Assembly: GCF_017744395.1 (NCBI RefSeq)
Contig: NZ_JAGIBI010000001.1
Span: forward strand, 992,001-1,056,000
Source of the DNA: Herbaspirillum sp.
GTDB lineage: Bacteria > Pseudomonadota > Gammaproteobacteria > Burkholderiales > Burkholderiaceae_D
DNA: 64,000 nucleotides
Reading direction: 5' to 3'
Below the pieces are notes generated by a model that saw only the letters and a program-made list of their open reading frames with translations, made no database searches and was not told the origin of the DNA. This document shows positions 5,399-14,877 of this stretch, piece by piece. The first letter of the stretch is position 1. Each line of letters starts with the position of its first letter. The position numbers were made by a program, and so were the translations under genes.

Positions 5399-5800
5399 TC
5401 AAAGCGCTGCATTGGGCTTGAGCACCTGCAGTACCGCGAGCAGTTCCGCCCGCACATTTTCAATGCCCTCTTCATTCAGGCTCAATGCCGGCGGCGCCAT
5501 CGCCTCCATCTGCTCGACCTCGTTGCTGCCGTCAAGCTTGTTGCGCGCGCCGCTGATGGTGAACCCCTGCTCGTACAGCAACTCGCGGATACGACGGATC
5601 AGCAACACTTCATGGTGCTGGTAATAACGGCGATTGCCGCGGCGCTTGACCGGCTTCAACTGGGTGAACTCCTGCTCCCAGTAGCGCAGCACGTGCGGCT
5701 TCACGCCGCACAATTCGCTGACTTCGCCGATCGTGAAATAGCGCTTGGCGGGAATCGGCGGCAACACGATTGCCGCAGGTTTGGTGACACGATCGTTCAT
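5399..5800 (-). CDS. MerR-family transcriptional regulator
   Basis: A 133-residue regulator with the N-terminal winged helix of the MerR family: FTIGEVSELCGVKPHVLRYW (about 22-41), then the second-wing RRGNRRYYQHHEVLLI. The C-terminal part is short and lacks a Cys-rich metal site or a long ligand-binding domain. It belongs to the small MerR proteins that regularly follow ihfA in beta- and gammaproteobacteria. It starts 3 bp after the ihfA stop and is presumably co-transcribed. Its target genes and effector are unknown. Confidence 0.9.
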   Translation of the reverse strand: MNDRVTKPAAIVLPPIPAKRYFTIGEVSELCGVKPHVLRYWEQEFTQLKPVKRRGNRRYYQHHEVLLIRRIRELLYEQGFTISGARNKLDGSNEVEQMEAMAPPALSLNEEGIENVRAELLAVLQVLKPNAAL

Positions 5801-5803
5801 AGA

Positions 5804-6217
5804 TTAGACGGACAATTCAACGGAGTTGCCGCTGGAGAGTTCCACCATTTCCTTCAATTTCTGGCTGGCGTGGAAAGTGACCACGCGCCGCGCCGTGATA
5901 GGGATTTCTTCACCGGTCTTGGGATTGCGGCCCGGCCGCTGGGGCTTGTCGCGCAACTGGAAGTTGCCGAAGCCGGACAGCTTGACCGCCTCGCCGCGCT
6001 CAAGCGCGTTGCGAATCTCATCGAAGAAGGTTTCCACCATGTCCTTCGCTTCGCGCTTGTTCAGACCGACCTGTTCGAACAAAAGTTCGGCCAGCTCCGC
6101 CTTGGTCAGCGTGGGCAGATTCTTCTCGGCCTGCGAGCGCGCCTGGGATTCCAGCACGGCGCGCTGCAGGTCGGCATCCAGCACGGATTGAAATTCGTTT
6201 GAATTCACGTTGTTCAT
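5804..6217 (-). CDS. ihfA: Integration host factor subunit alpha
   Basis: DNA-bending nucleoid protein that works as a heterodimer with IHF-beta. The conserved core begins at [20 protein letters not shown] and carries the DNA-intercalating arm sequence [18 protein letters not shown] (about 94-111). At 137 residues it is longer than the roughly 100-residue enterobacterial form because of about 36 extra N-terminal residues ([16 protein letters not shown]...). A start at an internal GTG cannot be excluded. It lies between pheT and merR, the usual place for ihfA at the end of the thrS-pheT operon. Confidence 0.93.
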
Positions 6218-6286
6218 GACGATGAATGGCTTGGCCTGTCTTACCGGCTCCGATCCGTATTTATTTTTCGGGGACTTGTTCTTGCA

Positions 6287-8713
6287 TCAGGCACGCAATC
6301 TGGCGCCAAGCTTTGCGCTCGCCGCCGTCACCAGTGCACTCATCGCAACGTCGACCTTGTCATCCTGAAGGGTGTTTTGAGTATCTTGCATGGTGAATCG
6401 GAACGCAAGGCTTTTTTCGTCATTTTCCAGGCCCTTGCCTTGATATTCATCAAATAAAACAATGGCTTGGATGATACCGCATACCGGATTGCCCTGCTTC
6501 TCGGCCGCGAAAACGTCCAGCAATTGCTGGGCTGCCACCGGCTGCTTGACGACCAGTGCGAGGTCGCGGCTGACGGCCGGGAACTTGGAGATTTCCGCAT
6601 AGGAAGGCAAGTCGCGCTGCTGCAGTGCATCAGCGCTTACCTCGAACACCACCGGCGACAATGGCAGGTCGTACTTCTGCTGCCACTTCGGATGCAGTTC
6701 GCCGATCACGCCGATCACTTCCTCGCCCAACATCACGCTGGCCGAACGGCCCGGATGCAAGGCCGGATGTTCGGTCTTGGCGAAGCGCAGCGTACGCGGC
6801 GCGAACAGCGCCTCCAGGTCGGCCTTGACGTCGAAGAAGTCGACATTGCGGGCGGGCTGGCCCCACTGCTCTTCAGCCACCGGCCCATAGGCCAGCGCGC
6901 CGACACGCTTGGGTTGCGCAAAGCCGGACACCGACAGCGGGCCGTCGGCAACCGATGCGTCCTTGGCAAACACGGCGCCCACTTCGAACACGCGGATACG
7001 CGAAGCCTTGCGGTTAAGGTTGTAGCGCGCATTGGCGACCAGGCCGGCGATCAGCGACGAGCGCATCACGCCCATCTGGCTGGCGATCGGGTTGAGCAGC
7101 TTGATCGGATCGGCGTTGCCGGAGAAATCGGCTTCCCATGCGGTTTCGACGAAGCTGAAGTTGACCACTTCCTGGTAGTCCTGGTCCGCCAGCAGGCGGC
7201 GGATGGCGAACAGGGAGCGCGTATTTTCCGGCGCGATGCGCATAGCGTTGGCGGCCACCGGCGGCAGCGCCGGGATGTTTTCGAAGCCGTAGACGCGCGC
7301 GACTTCTTCGATCAGGTCTTCCTCGATCTCTATGTCGAAACGGTAGGACGGCGGCGTCACCGAGAACAGGCCGGGCTCTTGCGTGAATTGCAAACCGAGA
7401 CGCTTGAAGATGTCGGCCACCATGTCGTCGGTGATTTCAACACCGATCACCTTGGCCGCGCGCGCGGTGCGCAGTTGCACCGGATTACGCTTGGGCAGGT
7501 TGACGATCTGGTCGTCGACCGCGCCGATCTTCGTGTCGGGCGTACCGCAGATTTCGACCAGCAGCGCGGTGATGCGCTCGATGTGCTCGACCACGGTGGC
7601 GAAGTCGACACCGCGTTCGAAGCGGTGCGCGGCATCGGTCGAGAAATTGTAGCGACGGGCGCGGCCCTGAATCGCCTGCGGGAACCAGAACGCGGCTTCC
7701 AGGTAGATGTTGGTGGTGTCCAGCGACACGGCGGTGGAATCGCCACCCATGATGCCCGCCAGCGATTCGATTTCCTTATCGTCGGAAATGACGCCGACCC
7801 ATTCGTCGACTTCGATGGTATTGCCGTTCAAGAGCTTGAGCGATTCGCCCGTCTTGCCCCAGCGCACATCCAGGCCGCCGTGGATCTTGTCCAGGTCGAA
7901 CACGTGCGAGGGACGGCCCAGTTCCAGCATGACGTAGTTGGAGATATCCACCAGGGCCGAGATCGGACGCTGGCCGCTGCGCTCCAGGCGCTGCTTCATC
8001 CATTGCGGGGTCGGCGCCTTGGCGTTGAGGCCGCGGATCACGCGGCCGGCGAAGCGGCCGCACAGGTCGGGCGCGGAAATGCGCACCGGCAGCTTCTCAT
8101 CCAGGTTGGCGGCCACCGGCTGGAATGCCGGCGCCTTCAGCGGCGTGCCGGTCAGGGCCGACACTTCGCGCGCCACGCCCAGCACCGACAGGCAGTCGGC
8201 CTTGTTGGGGGTGAGCTTGATGGTGAACTTGAGGTCGTTCAGTTGCAGGTAGTCGCGGAAATTCTGGCCGACCGGCGCATCGTCGGGCAGCTCCATCAGG
8301 CCGCCGTGGTCTTCCGACAGCTTCAGTTCGCGCGCCGAGCACAGCATGCCCTGCGACTCCACGCCGCGCAGCTTGCCGACCTTGATCTCGAAAGGCTTGC
8401 CGTCCGCGCCCGGCGGCAGCACCGCGCCGACCATGGCGCATGGCACCTTCAATCCGGGGCGCACGTTGGGCGCGCCGCACACGATATTGAGGATGGTGCC
8501 GGTATGGACGTTGACGCGGCATACGTTGAGGCGATCGGCGTCGGGATGCTTGGCCACTTCCAGCACTTCGCCCACCACCACGTTGGTGAAGGGCGGCGCG
8601 ACCGGCTCCACCTCTTCCACTTCCAGGCCGGACATCGTCAGCAAATGCGAGAGTTCATCCGAAGTCATCTTCGGATTGACCATCGTGCGCAACCAGTTTT
8701 CGGAGAATTGCAT
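6287..8713 (-). CDS. pheT: Phenylalanyl-tRNA synthetase beta subunit
   Basis: The 808-residue beta chain of the (alpha-beta)2 PheRS that charges tRNA-Phe in the cytoplasm. The N-terminal [14 protein letters not shown] and the EMAP/tRNA-binding domain (about 40-155, [20 protein letters not shown]) are followed by the B3/B4 editing region, the B5 domain (about 400-475) and a C-terminal ferredoxin-like anticodon-binding domain starting near [19 protein letters not shown]. The length matches full-length bacterial PheT. It follows pheS by 66 bp in the same operon, and ihfA follows. Confidence 0.97.
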
Positions 8714-8779
8714 GATTCAGACTTTCAGCTATCAGCCGGACGTGCGCCGCCCGCGCGGGCGGCGCCGCTCGTTATCGAT

Positions 8780-9796
8780 TTAATTGAATTGCTTGAGGAA
8801 ACGCAGGTCGCCTTCGTAGAACAGGCGCAGGTCGTTGATCCCGTAGCGCAGCATGGTCAGGCGCTCCAGGCCGGAGCCGAACGCGAAGCCGATGTATTGC
8901 TCGGGATCCAGGCCCATGTTGCGCACCACGGTCGGGTGCACCTGGCCGGCGCCGGAGACTTCCAGCCAACGGCCCTTCAGCGGACCGCTGCCGAAGGCGA
9001 TGTCGATCTCGGCCGAAGGCTCGGTGAACGGGAAGTAGGAAGGACGGAAGCGCACCTGCAGGTCGTCGGTCTCGAAGAAGGCCTTGACGAAGTTGAGGTA
9101 GACGCCCTTCAGGTCGGCGAAGCTGATGTCCTCGGCGATCCACAGGCCTTCGACCTGGTGGAACATCGGCGAGTGGGTGGCGTCGCTGTCGACGCGGTAG
9201 GTGCGGCCCGGCGCGATCACCTTGATCGGCGGCTTGTTCATGCGCGCGTAGCGCACCTGCATCGGGCTGGTGTGGGTACGCAGCAGCAAGGGCTTGCCCT
9301 GCGTGTCATTGCCTTCGATGTAGAAGGTATCCTGCATCGAACGCGCCGGGTGGTTTTCCGGGCTGTTCAGTGCGGTGAAATTGGTCCAGTCGGTTTCGAT
9401 CTCGGGGCCGTCGGCCACGTCGAAGCCAATCGAGCGGAAGATTTCCTCGACGCGCTGCCACGAGCGCATCACCGGATGGATGCCGCCCACGCCGCGGCCT
9501 CGGCCCGGCAGCGTGACGTCGATGGCTTCCGCATTCAGGCGCGCCTGCATCTGCGCGTTGGCCAGTTCGTCACGGCGTGCGGTCAGCGCGTTTTCGATCT
9601 GTTCCTTGGCGACGTTGATGATCGCCCCTTGCGCCTTGCGCTCCTCGGGGGCCAGCTTGCCCAGTCCCTTCATCTGCTCGGTGATCTGGCCGGTCTTGCC
9701 GAGGTACTTGGCCTTGGCGTTTTCCAGTGCGGCAGCGTCAGCGGCGGCGGTGAAATCAGCCTGCGCCTGCGCGACGATTTGGTCTAGGGGATTCAT
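8780..9796 (-). CDS. pheS: Phenylalanyl-tRNA synthetase alpha subunit
   Basis: The 338-residue catalytic subunit of PheRS, a class II synthetase. It has an N-terminal coiled-coil (about 1-85), the [19 protein letters not shown] motif-1 region, [14 protein letters not shown]-like and [11 protein letters not shown] motif-2 elements, and motif 3 [18 protein letters not shown] near the C-terminus. The start MNPLDQIV is chosen over a longer frame because of homology. Its ATG overlaps the stop of a short Phe-rich upstream frame (ATGA), suggesting translational coupling or attenuation. Confidence 0.96.
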
Positions 9797-9903
9797 GCGG
9801 TAAGTCTCGCTCCAATCGAAAATCCGACGACGAAGTCGAAAAGAAAAAGATCCGCGCACATGGCGGGATCAGAAAATCGGTGGATCAAAAACATACGGGG
9901 CAT
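9793..9903 (-). CDS. Putative Phe-rich leader peptide of pheS
   Basis: A 36-codon frame between rplT and pheS with six Phe residues (positions 5, 10, 20, 22, 24, 28). An AAGGTG site lies eight bases before its ATG, and its stop overlaps the pheS start as ATGA. The position matches pheM, the pheST leader peptide of enterobacteria. A terminator-like hairpin begins two codons after Phe10, inside the reading frame, which differs from the classic arrangement in which the leader stops before the terminator. The leader role is inferred from composition and position; a chance frame cannot be excluded. Confidence 0.5.
9838..9870 (-). terminator. Possible attenuator hairpin upstream of pheS
   Basis: On the minus strand GATCC-CGC pairs with GCG-(C)-GGATC (one bulged base), followed by TTTTTCTTTT. 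It lies within the Phe-rich leader frame, about 40 bases before the pheS start. It may act as a conditional terminator. Confidence 0.5.
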
Positions 9904-9994
9904 CGGTATTTCACCTTTGCCCCGCAGGATTGCAGCGCCGGCTGCTTTACTTGATGACGTAGAAGCGGCCGGCGGCCGCAAACACGCTGACGAT

Positions 9995-10357
9995 TTAGGC
10001 GGCAGCGATGTTGGCCTTCACCTGGTTGACGATGGCGGCGAATGCAGCCTTGTCGGTGACAGCCATGTCGGCCAGAACCTTGCGGTCCAGTTCGATCGAA
10101 GCCTTCTTCAGGCCGTTCATGAACACGCTGTAGGTCACGCCGTGCGAACGGGCAGCGGCGTTGATACGGGCGATCCACAGGGCACGGAAGACGCGCTTCT
10201 TGTTACGACGGTCACGGTACGCGTATTGGCCAGCGCGCATGACTGCTTGCTTGGCGATACGGTAGACGTTTTTGCGGCGACCGCGGTAACCCTTGGCGAG
10301 GGCGAGGACTTTCTTGTGACGGGCACGCGCTGTTACCCCACGTTTGACTCTAGGCAT
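9995..10357 (-). CDS. rplT: 50S ribosomal protein L20
   Basis: A 120-residue ribosomal protein of the large subunit, needed early in 50S assembly. It starts [18 protein letters not shown] and contains the conserved [13 protein letters not shown] and [21 protein letters not shown] stretches. The length is typical. It follows rpmI by 26 bp. In several bacteria L20 represses translation of the rpmI-rplT mRNA by binding its leader; possible structures for this lie upstream of rpmI. Confidence 0.98.
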
Positions 10358-10383
10358 GGTAGCTCCTTAGATATGATGTGAGG

Positions 10384-10581
10384 TTAAGCGAACGGCAGCA
10401 TTGCGCGAACGGAATTCAGGTTCGTCTCATGGACGCCCTCGGTACCGCGCAGTTGACGCTTGTTCTTGGTGGTCTTCTTGGTCAGGATGTGACGCTTGAA
10501 GGCTTGACCGCGCTTGACGGTACCGCCCGGGCGCACGCGAAAACGCTTCTTCGCGCTGCTCTTCGATTTCATCTTAGGCAT
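10384..10581 (-). CDS. rpmI: 50S ribosomal protein L35
   Basis: A 65-residue basic ribosomal protein starting [17 protein letters not shown], with the conserved [16 protein letters not shown] segment. It sits between infC and rplT, as in most bacteria. The ribosome-binding GGAAGGA is partly buried in a 6-bp hairpin with a GGAA loop. Confidence 0.98.
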
Positions 10582-10588
10582 AGCAACT

Positions 10589-10604
10589 CTGTCCTTCCGG
10601 ACAG
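10589..10604 (-). promoter_or_regulatory. Hairpin over the rpmI ribosome-binding site
   Basis: CTGTCC-GGAA-GGACAG on the minus strand, eight bases before the rpmI ATG. The GGAAGGA Shine-Dalgarno lies in the loop and 3' arm, so folding would limit ribosome access. This is consistent with, but not proof of, L20-type translational feedback. Confidence 0.45.
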
Positions 10605-10704
10605 CTCCATTTTTTGATGATTGCAGGTGGCAGCAATGCTCGCTGCTCTTTGATGCCTGCTCTCACTTATTTGACAGCGGCCGGGTATTTCACCCCTCCG
10701 CTGC

Positions 10705-10736
10705 TTTTGCCCGCTGCATTGATACTGCGGGCAAAA
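10705..10736 (-). repeat. Ten-bp perfect hairpin in the infC-rpmI spacer
   Basis: TTTTGCCCGC and GCGGGCAAAA flank a 12-base loop. No T-tract follows on the minus strand, so it is unlikely to be a terminator. It is a candidate part of an mRNA structure controlling rpmI-rplT. The rest of the 230-base spacer shows no ORF. Confidence 0.45.
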
Positions 10737-10814
10737 CCTTTGTCGGCCCTACACTGCGCCGCTTTCGCAACGCGGGAGGCATCTGCGGACGCCATCCCGA
10801 TACGGCTATTCGAC

Positions 10815-11336
10815 TTACTTCTTTTTCTTCGGCGCCAGCACCATGATCATCTGGCGGCCTTCCATCTTGGGAAACTGCTCGACCTGGCCGAACGGTTCCA
10901 GGTCAGCCTTCAAGCGCTCCAGCATGCGCATGCCGATTTCCTGGTGCGCCATCTCACGGCCGCGGAAACGCAGCGTGATCTTGGTCTTGTCGCCGTCTTC
11001 CAGGAACTTGGTCAGGTTGCGCAGCTTGATGTTGTAATCGCCGTCATCGGTACCAGGACGGAATTTGACTTCCTTGACCTGGATGACCTTCTGCTTGAGC
11101 TTGGCTTCGTGAGCTTTCTTCTGCTCCTGGTACTTGAACTTGCCGTAGTCCATCAAGCGGCAGACCGGAGGCTGCGCGGTTGGTGCGATTTCGACCAGAT
11201 CCACTTCAGCCTCTTCCGACAAGCGCAAGGCTTCAGCCAAACTGACGATGCCCAGCGGCTCGTTATTGACGCCCGATAAGCGCACTTCCGGCGCTGTGAT
11301 TTCGCGATTCAGGCGATGCGACTTGTCAGTAGCTAT
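10815..11336 (-). CDS. infC: Translation initiation factor IF-3
   Basis: A 173-residue IF-3 that binds the 30S subunit and proofreads start-codon selection. The body runs from [20 protein letters not shown] to the Lys-rich end LAPKKKK and includes the family's [19 protein letters not shown] linker. A GTG at 11285 would remove the conserved N-terminus. Extending the frame gives [18 protein letters not shown], which matches other betaproteobacterial IF-3 proteins, and the only initiator placed correctly is an ATA at 11336-11334 with AGGA seven bases upstream. infC genes classically use rare AUU/AUC/AUA starts for self-regulation, which supports this choice. Confidence 0.92.
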
Positions 11337-11408: not shown

Positions 11409-13316
11409 TCAGGCTTTGGTGTCGACCTCAGTCTTGAGGCGCTCCACCAAGGTGTCGATGGACATCACGCCCAGATCGACATTGCCCCGCGCACGCACGG
11501 CCACTGTGTTTGCATCACGTTCTTTATCGCCGACAACCAATATATAGGGCGGCTTCTGAATCGAATGCTGCCGTATTTTATAGGTAATCTTTTCGTTACG
11601 CAAATCGGTCTCTACCCTAAACCCTTGTTTTTTCAGCGTTTGTGCAACGTTCTTGACGTAATCGGCTTGCGCGTCGGAAATATTCAGGATGACAACTTGC
11701 ACAGGTGCCAACCACAGCGGCATCGCGCCGGCATGGTTTTCGATCAGGATCGCGATGAAACGCTCCAGCGAACCGACGATCGCCCGGTGCAGCATGACCG
11801 GCACCTTGCGGCCGTTGTCTTCCGTGACATATTCCGCGCCCAGGCGGGCCGGCATCGAGAAGTCGACCTGCATGGTGCCGCACTGCCAGGAACGGCCGAT
11901 CGAGTCCTTCAGGTGGTATTCGATCTTGGGACCGTAGAAGGCGCCCTCGCCCGGCAGCTCTTCCCACTCCGAACCGGAGGCGCGGATGGCTTCGCGCAGG
12001 GCGTTTTCCGCCTTGTCCCAAACCTCCTCTGCGCCGATGCGCTTTTCCGGGCGCAGCGCCAGCTTCACGGCGACATCCTTGAAGCCGAAGCAGTCGTAGA
12101 CCTCGCGCACCACCTTGTTGAAGGCGGCGACTTCCTCCTGGATCTGGTCTTCGGTACAGAAGATGTGGCCGTCATCCTGGGTGAAGCCGCGTACGCGCAT
12201 CATGCCGTGCAGCGCACCGGACGGCTCGTTGCGGTGGCACTGGCCGAATTCGCCGTAGCGCAGCGGCAGGTCGCGGTAGCTGTGCAGGCCGGAATTGAAT
12301 ATCTGGATATGGCCCGGGCAATTCATCGGTTTCAGCGCATAGGCGCGGCTTTCCGACTCGGTCGTGAACATGTTTTCACGATAATTTTCCCAGTGGCCGG
12401 TCTTTTCCCACAGCGAGCGATCGAGGATCTGCGGCGCCTTCACTTCCTGGTAGCCGTTGTCCTGGTAGACGCGGCGCATGTATTGCTCGACCTGTTGCCA
12501 GATCGACCAGCCCTTGGGGTGCCAGAAGATCAGGCCCGGCGCCTCGTCCTGGAAGTGGAACAGGTCCAGCGCGCGGCCCAGCTTGCGGTGATCGCGCTTC
12601 TCGGCCTCTTCCAGCATGTGCAGGTAGGCTTCCTGGTCTTCCTTCTTGGCCCAGGCGGTGCCGTAGACCCGCTGCAGCATCTCGTTGTTGGAGTCGCCGC
12701 GCCAGTAGGCGCCGGCCAGCTTCATCAGCTTGAACACCTTGAGCTTGCCGGTGGACGGCACGTGCGGGCCGCGACACAGGTCGGTGAAGCTGCCCTCGGT
12801 GTACAGCGACACGTCCTCGTTTTGCGGGATCGAGGCGATGATTTCGGCCTTGTAGTCCTCGCCGATCGACTTGAAGTAAGCCACGGCCTCGTCGCGCGGC
12901 AGCACCTTGCGGGTGACCGGCTCATCCTTCTTGGCCAGCTCGGCCATCTTCTTTTCGATGGCTTCCAGGTCGTCCGGAGTAAAGGGGCGCTTGTACGAGA
13001 AGTCGTAATAGAAACCGTTGTCGATCACCGGGCCGATGGTCACCTGGGCGTCGGGGAACAGCTCCTTGACCGCGTAAGCCAGCAAGTGGGCGGTCGAATG
13101 GCGGATCACTTCCAGGCCGTCCGCATCCTTGTCGGTCACGATGGCGAGGTCGGAATCCTTGTCGATCAGGAACGAGGTATCGACCAGCTTGCCGTCAACA
13201 CGGCCGGCCAATGCGGCCTTGGCCAGGCCGGCGCCGATATTGGCGGCGACTTGCGCTACCGTGACCGGACCGTCGAATTGGCGTTGCGAACCATCGGGAA
13301 GACGAACTGAAACCAT
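11409..13316 (-). CDS. thrS: Threonyl-tRNA synthetase
   Basis: A 635-residue class II synthetase that charges tRNA-Thr. It contains an N-terminal TGS domain (1-60), the editing/SAD domain with [16 protein letters not shown], the catalytic core with [15 protein letters not shown] and [10 protein letters not shown] (zinc ligand Cys) and motif 3 near [16 protein letters not shown], and the C-terminal anticodon-binding domain. The start MVSVRLPDG is chosen because GGAG lies six bases upstream; an upstream ATG is eight codons earlier. It is the first gene of the translation operon, preceded by a 250-base leader with a Thr-rich peptide and terminator. Confidence 0.97.
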
Positions 13317-13383
13317 TTTGCACTCCATGTCGGCAGCCATGCTGCCTTGCCTGATTTGGGTAGATGTCCAAGAATGAAGGACG

Positions 13384-13412
13384 AAAAAAAACGCGGGCCA
13401 GCCGCGCTTTTC
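13384..13412 (-). terminator. Intrinsic terminator in the thrS leader (attenuator)
   Basis: On the minus strand AAAA-G-CGCGG, a CTGGC loop, CCGCG, then eight T residues. It lies between the Thr-rich leader peptide and thrS, not after a gene, so it probably acts conditionally. Confidence 0.8.
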
Positions 13413-13434
13413 CAGAAGACGAAAAAGAACCCGA

Positions 13435-13476
13435 CTAGCGTCGCTCGAAAACCTCGGTGGTAGTTCGCGGTGTCAT
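13435..13476 (-). CDS. Thr-rich leader peptide of thrS
   Basis: A 13-codon frame reading [13 protein letters not shown] then TAG. It contains four Thr codons (ACA, ACT, ACC, ACC), three of them consecutive. AAAGG lies ten bases upstream of the ATG. It is followed 22 bases later by an intrinsic terminator and, after another 67 bases, by thrS; an extended -10 promoter lies about 100 bases upstream. This order is that of amino-acid biosynthetic and pheST attenuators, where stalling at codons for the scarce aminoacyl-tRNA prevents termination. The function is inferred from architecture only. Confidence 0.7.
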
Positions 13477-13573
13477 AACCGGTTTGCCTTTCTCGCTCTT
13501 ACAGAATATGGTGAACTTGCTGCGCCGCCCGTTGCCGTCCTTCCAAGGCAGCATCCAGCTAGCACAAGCGTCG

Positions 13574-13582
13574 ATTATAGCA
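13574..13582 (-). promoter_or_regulatory. Extended -10 promoter of thrS
   Basis: TGCTATAAT on the minus strand, a perfect -10 with the TGn extension. The -35 hexamer is weak. Initiation near 13567 would give a leader of about 250 bases before thrS. Confidence 0.75.
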
Positions 13583-13730
13583 AATTAATCAGCTGCTCCG
13601 GCGCAGAGCAGGACAACCCTTCAAAAATCTTCATCGTTTACAGTTGCAAATACGCTGTTCGAGACACGACGACCATCAACTTATTCCATCGCCCATGCTA
13701 GGATGAAGACTGATTATGGAGAAGCGCACC

Positions 13731-14015: not shown

Positions 14016-14423
14016 TTACGCCTTTTCCAGATGGGCGCGCCGCGCCAGGATTTTCTCGATCTTTTCCTTCAGGGTGGCCGCATTGAAAGGCTTGACGATA
14101 TAGCCGTCCGCGCCCGACTGCGCCGCCTCGACAATATTCTCCTTCTTGGCCTCGGCCGTGATCATCAGCACCGGCAGGTGGCTCAGGGACGGCGTCGAAC
14201 GGATCTTCTTGAGCAGCGTCAGACCATCCATCACCGGCATGTTCCAGTCGGTCAGCACGAAAGTCACCGGCAAGGCGCCCGCCTCCAGCACCTTCAAGGC
14301 CGAAGAGCCGTCGTCCGCCTCGACAATCTTGTTGTACTCCAACTCTTTCAACAGGCCGCTAACGATGCGCCGCATTGTCGAAAAGTCATCAACCACGAGG
14401 AAATACTGGTCATCTGCTGCCAT
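14016..14423 (-). CDS. cheY: CheY-like single-domain response regulator
   Basis: A 135-residue receiver domain without an output domain. The acidic pocket Asp12-Asp13, phosphoacceptor Asp59 ([11 protein letters not shown]), switch Thr89 (ITAEAKK) and Lys111 (KPF) are all present. [14 protein letters not shown] and DWNMP are typical of chemotaxis CheY rather than of sporulation or generic receivers. No che or fla genes adjoin it, so it may be an orphan CheY; a CheV gene lies 19 kb away. The exact motor or kinase partner cannot be told. Confidence 0.8.
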
Positions 14424-14800: not shown

Positions 14801-14877
14801 TGGTAGGCACGATTGGACTCGAACCAACGACCCCTACCATGTCAAGGTAGTGCTCTAACCAGCTGAGCTACGCGCCT
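14801..14877 (-). tRNA. tRNA-Val (anticodon GAC)
   Basis: A 77-base cloverleaf including encoded CCA. Acceptor AGGCGCG pairs with CGTGCCT. The anticodon stem CTACC/GGTAG holds loop TTGACAT with GAC. The T-arm contains GGTTCGAGTCC. Confidence 0.95.

Follow-up and report, generated by a model that had tools for sequence, protein, structure and literature searches.

The DNA analysed here, a 64,000-nt stretch of a Herbaspirillum genome hereafter called the window, carries thrS at the head of a run of translation-related and regulatory genes, and a short threonine-containing reading frame and a predicted terminator lie before it (Table 1). A preliminary description of this interval had listed an extended −10 element, a 13-codon frame with the Thr codons ACA, ACT, ACC and ACC, a hairpin with eight T residues and thrS, and all of these were recovered in the sequence. 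The thrS frame reaches back to 13340, and the start at 13316, after GGAG, is the more likely one because of comparison with relatives. In a scan of the window, no −35 match was found at the candidate −10 element TGCTATAAT; the element lies 96–124 nt upstream of the leader in all eight same-genus loci, the window's own included, and in the window it may be a leftover of a tRNA promoter. Behind thrS, terminator-like sites were no commoner than in shuffled sequences, and it is therefore possible that the genes from infC to the MerR-type regulator gene are co-transcribed with thrS. A 39-aa in-frame ORF from 13554, which ends in the same 13 codons, was rejected as the leader frame, its upstream part lacking conservation; within it, conservation was limited to the part from 13476 on, with the SD region. 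Other Rfam matches on the minus strand of the window were a betaproteobacterial toxic small RNA (RF02278, 59255–59324) and an FMN riboswitch (RF00050, 22594–22769).

Table 1 Features of the thrS leader region and its neighbourhood in the window, in order along the minus strand
Feature	Coordinates	Strand	Remarks
tRNA-Val	14801–14877		1.3 kb upstream of the window leader
CheY-like gene	14016–14423		between tRNA-Val and the window leader
Extended −10 element, TGCTATAAT	13582–13574	minus	candidate; about 98 nt before leader start
Conserved SD block of leader, TGTAAGAGCGAGAAAGGC	13486–13503	minus	near-invariant in A1 (56 own-family sequences)
Leader frame, 13 codons	13435–13476	minus	ATG at 13476; TAG 13437–13435; Thr codons 2, 5, 6 and 7
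Leader Thr codons	ACA 13473–13471; ACT 13464–13462; ACC 13461–13459; ACC 13458–13456	minus	
Region 1, CCGCGAACT	13462–13470	minus	codons 3–5; (nearly) invariant in own family
Region 2, GCTAGTCG	13432–13439	minus	over stop codon; putative antiterminator 5′ strand
Post-stop segment, CTTTTTCGTC	13418–13427	minus	putative inner antiterminator part (with A run) and partner of SD block
Region 3, CGGCTGGC	13397–13404	minus	terminator 5′ arm and loop; putative antiterminator 3′ strand
Predicted intrinsic terminator	13384–13411	minus	stem AAAAGCGCGG-CTGGC-CCGCGTTTTT; hairpin 13411–13387; eight T 13391–13384
thrS, threonine--tRNA ligase	11409–13316	minus	TIGR00418, E = 2.1e-220
infC, rpmI, rplT, pheS, pheT, ihfA, MerR-type regulator gene	5399–11285	minus	NCBIfam; downstream of thrS

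The leader block has a single match in the window's own genome. In blast searches, the 291-nt interval matched 118 of the 145 genomes of the family, with 113 matches covering the leader start and five the terminator only; the matching stretch outside the genus was approximately 13505–13379, and in other genera the conserved block stops about 60–70 nt before the likely thrS start. Twenty blast-negative family genomes were tested, of which 17 had thrS and 16 were assessable; eight of these 16 showed a leader (e.g. MRAFRTTTTTLLG), and none was found in the other eight, in one of which the upstream sequence extends for only about 100 nt. The short frame and its Thr codons, on whose conservation in relatives the preliminary description had staked its reading, were conserved. 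In A1, an alignment of 56 own-family sequences that are a diverse choice from 68, GGTTATG and CACCGCGAAC were invariant, including the silent third positions of codons 3 and 4. At the nucleotide level, the invariant stretch in the window is 13477–13462 (GGTTATGACACCGCGAAC), in which CGGU and ACCG make up a hairpin enclosing the start codon, and this constraint exceeds what a leader peptide needs.

The A1 covariance model found matches in 88 of 399 genomes of the order at E ≤ 0.01, with 54 at E < 1e-4, and 42 of these 54 were outside the window's own family, in eight other families (f9, f21, f22, f31, f34, f38, f46 and f49). The element was followed by thrS in 55 of the 58 such loci examined, no thrS being visible at L126, L132 and L134. 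Class genomes outside the order gave nine matches, all weak (4.6e-4 to 8.6e-3), and in seven the match was confined to the terminator part. Furthermore, the exact 19-nt start-codon motif SGTTATGACACCGCGAACK, scanned over one genome per species, occurred at no fewer than 119 loci; thrS lay 114–306 nt downstream of the leader start in 118 of the 119 loci listed, and at the remaining one (L217) the contig ends 43 nt after the leader start. Among the 80 titles listed for these loci, 76 were Betaproteobacteria, including Comamonadaceae, Burkholderia, Cupriavidus and Massilia, three were given as bacterium or Proteobacteria only, and one was of Alphaproteobacteria; viral contigs contained no match to the motif. 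When one genome per family was taken, a terminator preceded thrS in 22 of 29 families of the order versus 7 of 24 outside it, a script detected a Thr-rich frame before thrS in 6 of 29 versus 1 of 24, and the leader core was seen by eye in 8 of the 29 order families, the leader being absent from most of these order genomes. Judged by sequence, nine or more families of the order have the Thr leader element, and many other families are without it. For the counts given below, duplicates and weak matches (L001, L072–L083, L142–L147, L267–L286, L299 and L304–L306) had been set aside; 263 loci were used, 15 of which had no leader (four without thrS and 11 without a recognised frame), and 243 of the 248 leaders were distinct.

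Because a leader was recognized by, and thus selected for, an Arg/Leu/Pro-Thr core close to its start, only the codons after this core were counted. Across 212 distinct tails, Thr accounted for 293 of the 636 in-frame codons at the three positions that follow the core Thr, compared to 11 and 17 of 636 in the other two frames. The first of these codons was ACA in 34, ACC in 40, ACG in 44 and ACT in 13 leaders, and with all four in use it is therefore the amino acid that is kept, the third base varying. In the loci selected by SGTTATGACACCGCGAACK, where nothing past codon 5 was chosen by the motif, 144 of 303 codons in 101 tails were Thr in frame, compared to 1 and 10 of 303 in the other frames. 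At least three Thr codons were present in 93 of these 101 leaders and in 35 of 53 order loci selected with the covariance model, and just two in 33 of the 212 leaders. These counts are consistent with a translated short frame that carries regulatory codons cognate to the downstream synthetase.

A terminator was present in 242 of 243 leaders, at E ≤ −11 in 238 of 243 compared to 25 of 729 shuffled sequences, pointing to an intrinsic terminator between the leader and the structural gene. A generic scanner did not list the terminator of the window, probably because the A run of its 5′ arm pairs with the T run, and a dedicated scan finds it. The sequence CGTCC at 13383–13379, directly after the T run, is conserved in the window's own family despite lying beyond the expected 3′ end, and is a repeat of the post-stop CUUUUUCGUC. 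The sole role of a terminator at this place might be to stop transcripts of an upstream tRNA-Val gene, or to separate transcription units, with the short frame being incidental: of 68 own-family leaders, 30 have tRNA-Val within the preceding 200 nt, and in some families thrS follows tRNA-Val and a terminator with no recognizable leader (L309, L315, L333 and L336). In the window, however, the leader lies 1.3 kb from tRNA-Val and is preceded by a promoter-like site of its own, and neither the frame-specific enrichment of Thr, with all four Thr codons in use, nor the conserved antiterminator described below would be expected of a simple boundary terminator, making this explanation quite improbable.

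The sequence of the leader shows a short frame with Thr codons, a terminator and a pair of helices, at the stop codon and the 5′ arm of the terminator, that exclude one another. The preliminary description had suggested folding the interval in search of a conserved antiterminator, and one was found, formed by another pairing than the stem it had put forward: GCUAGUCG, over the leader stop codon, pairs with CGGCUGGC, located in the 5′ arm and loop of the terminator (regions 2 and 3, hereafter 2:3), and an inner part pairs CUUUUUC against the A run. In A1, 92.8% of the antiterminator cells pair (96.9% in the outer helix), compared to 35–62% when the strands are slid by 1–3 columns. Changes on both sides of a pair occurred in 11 cells versus 5.4 in shuffles (3 of 500 shuffles reached this value), and covariation was 0.156 versus 0.143 (10 of 500 shuffles); the number of antiterminator pairs with both-side changes was not unusual in A1 (122 of 500 shuffles). 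RNAalifold on A1 returned the terminator and the start-codon hairpin, not the 2:3 antiterminator. In other families, differing sequences permit a like pairing, for example GGUUCGCGC with GCGCGGACC (L094) and GGCCGCGC with the terminator arm (L177). Over 232 leaders, the 2:3 duplex had a mean z of −1.57 (p ≤ 0.05 in 41%) compared to −0.01 (7%) for a control segment, and a leader's own 2:3 partners paired better than swapped ones in 161 of the 232.

Support for the remaining helices differed. Region 1 pairs with region 2 (1:2, the putative protector) in 81.3% of A1 cells, without covariation, and this helix is predicted for the window without a ribosome; its z was −0.79, and own partners beat swapped ones in 116 of 232 leaders, i.e., were no better. 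The protecting stem of the preliminary description, in which GAAC and CCGA are paired to TCGG and GTTC, is present in the window and does not hold as a general protector, occurring in nine of 68 own-family leaders, eight of which are of the same genus. The SD block TGTAAGAGCGAGAAAGGC can pair with the post-stop CUUUUUCGU, with a z of −2.13 (p ≤ 0.05 in 63%) in the 68 own-family leaders and of −1.44 (35%) in 113 motif loci; the SD block with the post-stop U run was also considered as the entire switch and is retained as an accessory helix only. The other pairing noted earlier, CCGCG of codons 3–4 with the terminator 5′ arm, is near-invariant, and as an antiterminator it was rejected: 98.9% of its cells pair without covariation, the arm is changed to CACGG/CCGTG in L052 and L053 with the leader unchanged, and with a ribosome at the stop codon the pairing would oppose the expected direction, the model predicting 7.4 pairs between region 1 and the terminator arm, an unwanted antiterminator.

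Folding with a ribosome placed on the leader was modelled on RNA truncated ahead of the terminator 3′ arm, with a mask that reached, from the first base of the A-site codon, 16 nt upstream and 12 nt downstream, a size taken from general knowledge. In the window, the expected number of 2:3 pairs was 11.8–13.8 with A-site codons 2–9, 3.5 with codon 10 and 0.0–0.2 with codons 11–14 (stop), and all four Thr codons are within the permissive codons 2–9. Without a ribosome, the 2:3 pairs dropped to 3.3, being replaced by 1:2 and SD pairing. Stalling at the last clustered Thr codon exceeded the stop position by more than two 2:3 pairs in 153 of 242 leaders, with the reverse in seven, and exceeded the ribosome-free state in 100 of 242, again with the reverse in seven; in 219 of 242, the mask left the best 2:3 strand free with the ribosome at the core Thr and reached it with the ribosome at the stop codon. 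In these models and alignments, the putative antiterminator is exclusive with the terminator, free at the regulatory codons and masked at the stop codon. In equilibrium folds of the full-length window leader, terminator occupancy was 0.72 without a ribosome, 0.59 and 0.63 with a stalled ribosome and 0.73 with a ribosome at the stop codon; as it hardly moves, the switch must be kinetic, with timing being important.

We consider it highly probable that the element is a classical ribosome-mediated transcription attenuator of thrS. Control of the terminator by the position of a ribosome on a Thr leader peptide was the central proposal of the preliminary description, and it is supported by the conserved frame, its in-frame Thr codons, the terminator and the antiterminator helix. 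When charged Thr-tRNA is short, the first ribosome would wait at Thr codon 2, 5, 6 or 7, covering region 1, and region 2 (GCUAGUCG with the U run that follows) would be free to pair with the terminator 5′ arm and the A run, allowing RNA polymerase to continue into thrS. With Thr-tRNA in ample supply, the ribosome would reach the stop codon and cover region 2, and the terminator would form. Without a ribosome, the SD block and region 1 would sequester region 2, such that termination is favoured and repeated translation of the leader is limited. Expression of thrS is thus predicted by the model to rise upon a shortage of charged Thr-tRNA.

The invariance of the start-codon region bears on two further explanations. 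Autogenous control, in which the CGGU-UAUGAC-ACCG hairpin is a binding site for ThrRS, comparable to the operator bound by the E. coli enzyme, would account for a start region unvarying in all 56 own-family sequences, silent positions included, and for the start-codon hairpin kept by RNAalifold, and has a precedent in E. coli (PMC11088916). However, the element precedes a terminator and a short frame of its own, away from the thrS ribosome site, and downstream of the core it is the encoded amino acid, Thr, that selection preserves, a feature for which an operator has no use, so that such control is very improbable here. Arrest of the ribosome by the nascent MTPRT peptide, instead of by empty Thr codons, fits the near-constant MTPRT start in the window's own family and in loci read by eye, and the 33 leaders with just two Thr codons, yet Thr runs are kept under other starts (MFRTTTTTGK, MAVRTTTTHP, MQLNRTTTTS and MRAFRTTTTTLLG) and codons 3–4 are constant at the nucleotide level, leaving this explanation hardly any likelihood.

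The proposed attenuator may be compared to known systems of control. In gamma-proteobacteria, amino-acid operons and pheST are under leader-peptide attenuators. The thrS leader resembles these in its short frame rich in cognate codons and in an antiterminator and a terminator that share one arm; it differs in its target, thrS, and its sequence is unrelated as far as Rfam shows. No Rfam family matches the leader at gathering scores, nor at E ≤ 1 over 13310–13620. In Firmicutes, thrS has T-box leaders, which attenuate transcription in response to uncharged tRNA. These likewise act by transcription attenuation before thrS, whereas in a T-box the tRNA binds the RNA directly, and at the window leader no T-box covariance model matched, even at E ≤ 1 over 13310–13620. 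In family f63, of the class but outside the order (L341 and L364–L380), a different Thr leader precedes thrS: the motif GACATGAG[C/G]ACTAC occurs in 15 of 18 thrS loci, with peptides MSTTTAHR, MSTTTAQR, MRTTDAHC and others, and, by eye, these loci often appear to have a GGCGCC hairpin and a T run before thrS. In E. coli, thrS is also controlled by threonyl-tRNA economy; in contrast to the leader studied here, PMC11088916 describes a translational operator, with protein-bound hairpins at the ribosome site and without a leader frame or a terminator. Gamma-proteobacterial leader-peptide attenuation is cited, as reference 7, in PMC1262725.

A Thr-codon leader peptide, thrL, has been proposed before thrS of Streptomyces lividans (PMC8079986), and a Thr leader for thrS is therefore not a new idea. 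The S. lividans leader is that of an actinobacterium and reads MKRVRPFLETTPGFVPAR with two Thr, and its termination is called unclear in that paper; no sequence likeness to the window leader is visible by eye. In our literature searches, no thrS leader in Betaproteobacteria was recognized; a 2010 survey (Lopatovskaya et al.), cited in PMC4833913 and covering attenuation in amino-acid and aminoacyl-tRNA operons, may include this case, and an earlier description there or in Vitreschak et al. (2004) is possible. Judged from its organization, the betaproteobacterial thrS leader is probably a known kind of attenuator with an unusually wide conservation. Common as the element is, Rfam has no entry for it, and its annotation is therefore missing in many genomes.

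The constancy of the start-codon RNA GGUUAUGACACCGCGAAC, which extends to silent positions and to leaders that have no more than two Thr codons, leads to a bolder extension of the attenuator. The leader might be a two-layer sensor in which this RNA is also read, by ThrRS, by the initiating ribosome or through the MTPRT peptide, the same logic having separately arisen, or persisted, in the other family of the class with its MSTTTAHR-type thrS leaders; we regard this as speculative and rather unlikely. If the attenuator as proposed is real, charged Thr-tRNA would control thrS, and perhaps the genes for an initiation factor, ribosomal proteins and PheRS, in many Betaproteobacteria. In addition, thrS would be a gene with at least three solutions to one task, namely a leader peptide, the protein operator of E. 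coli and the T-box of Firmicutes, and the leader would be a compact, testable sensor of Thr-tRNA charging.
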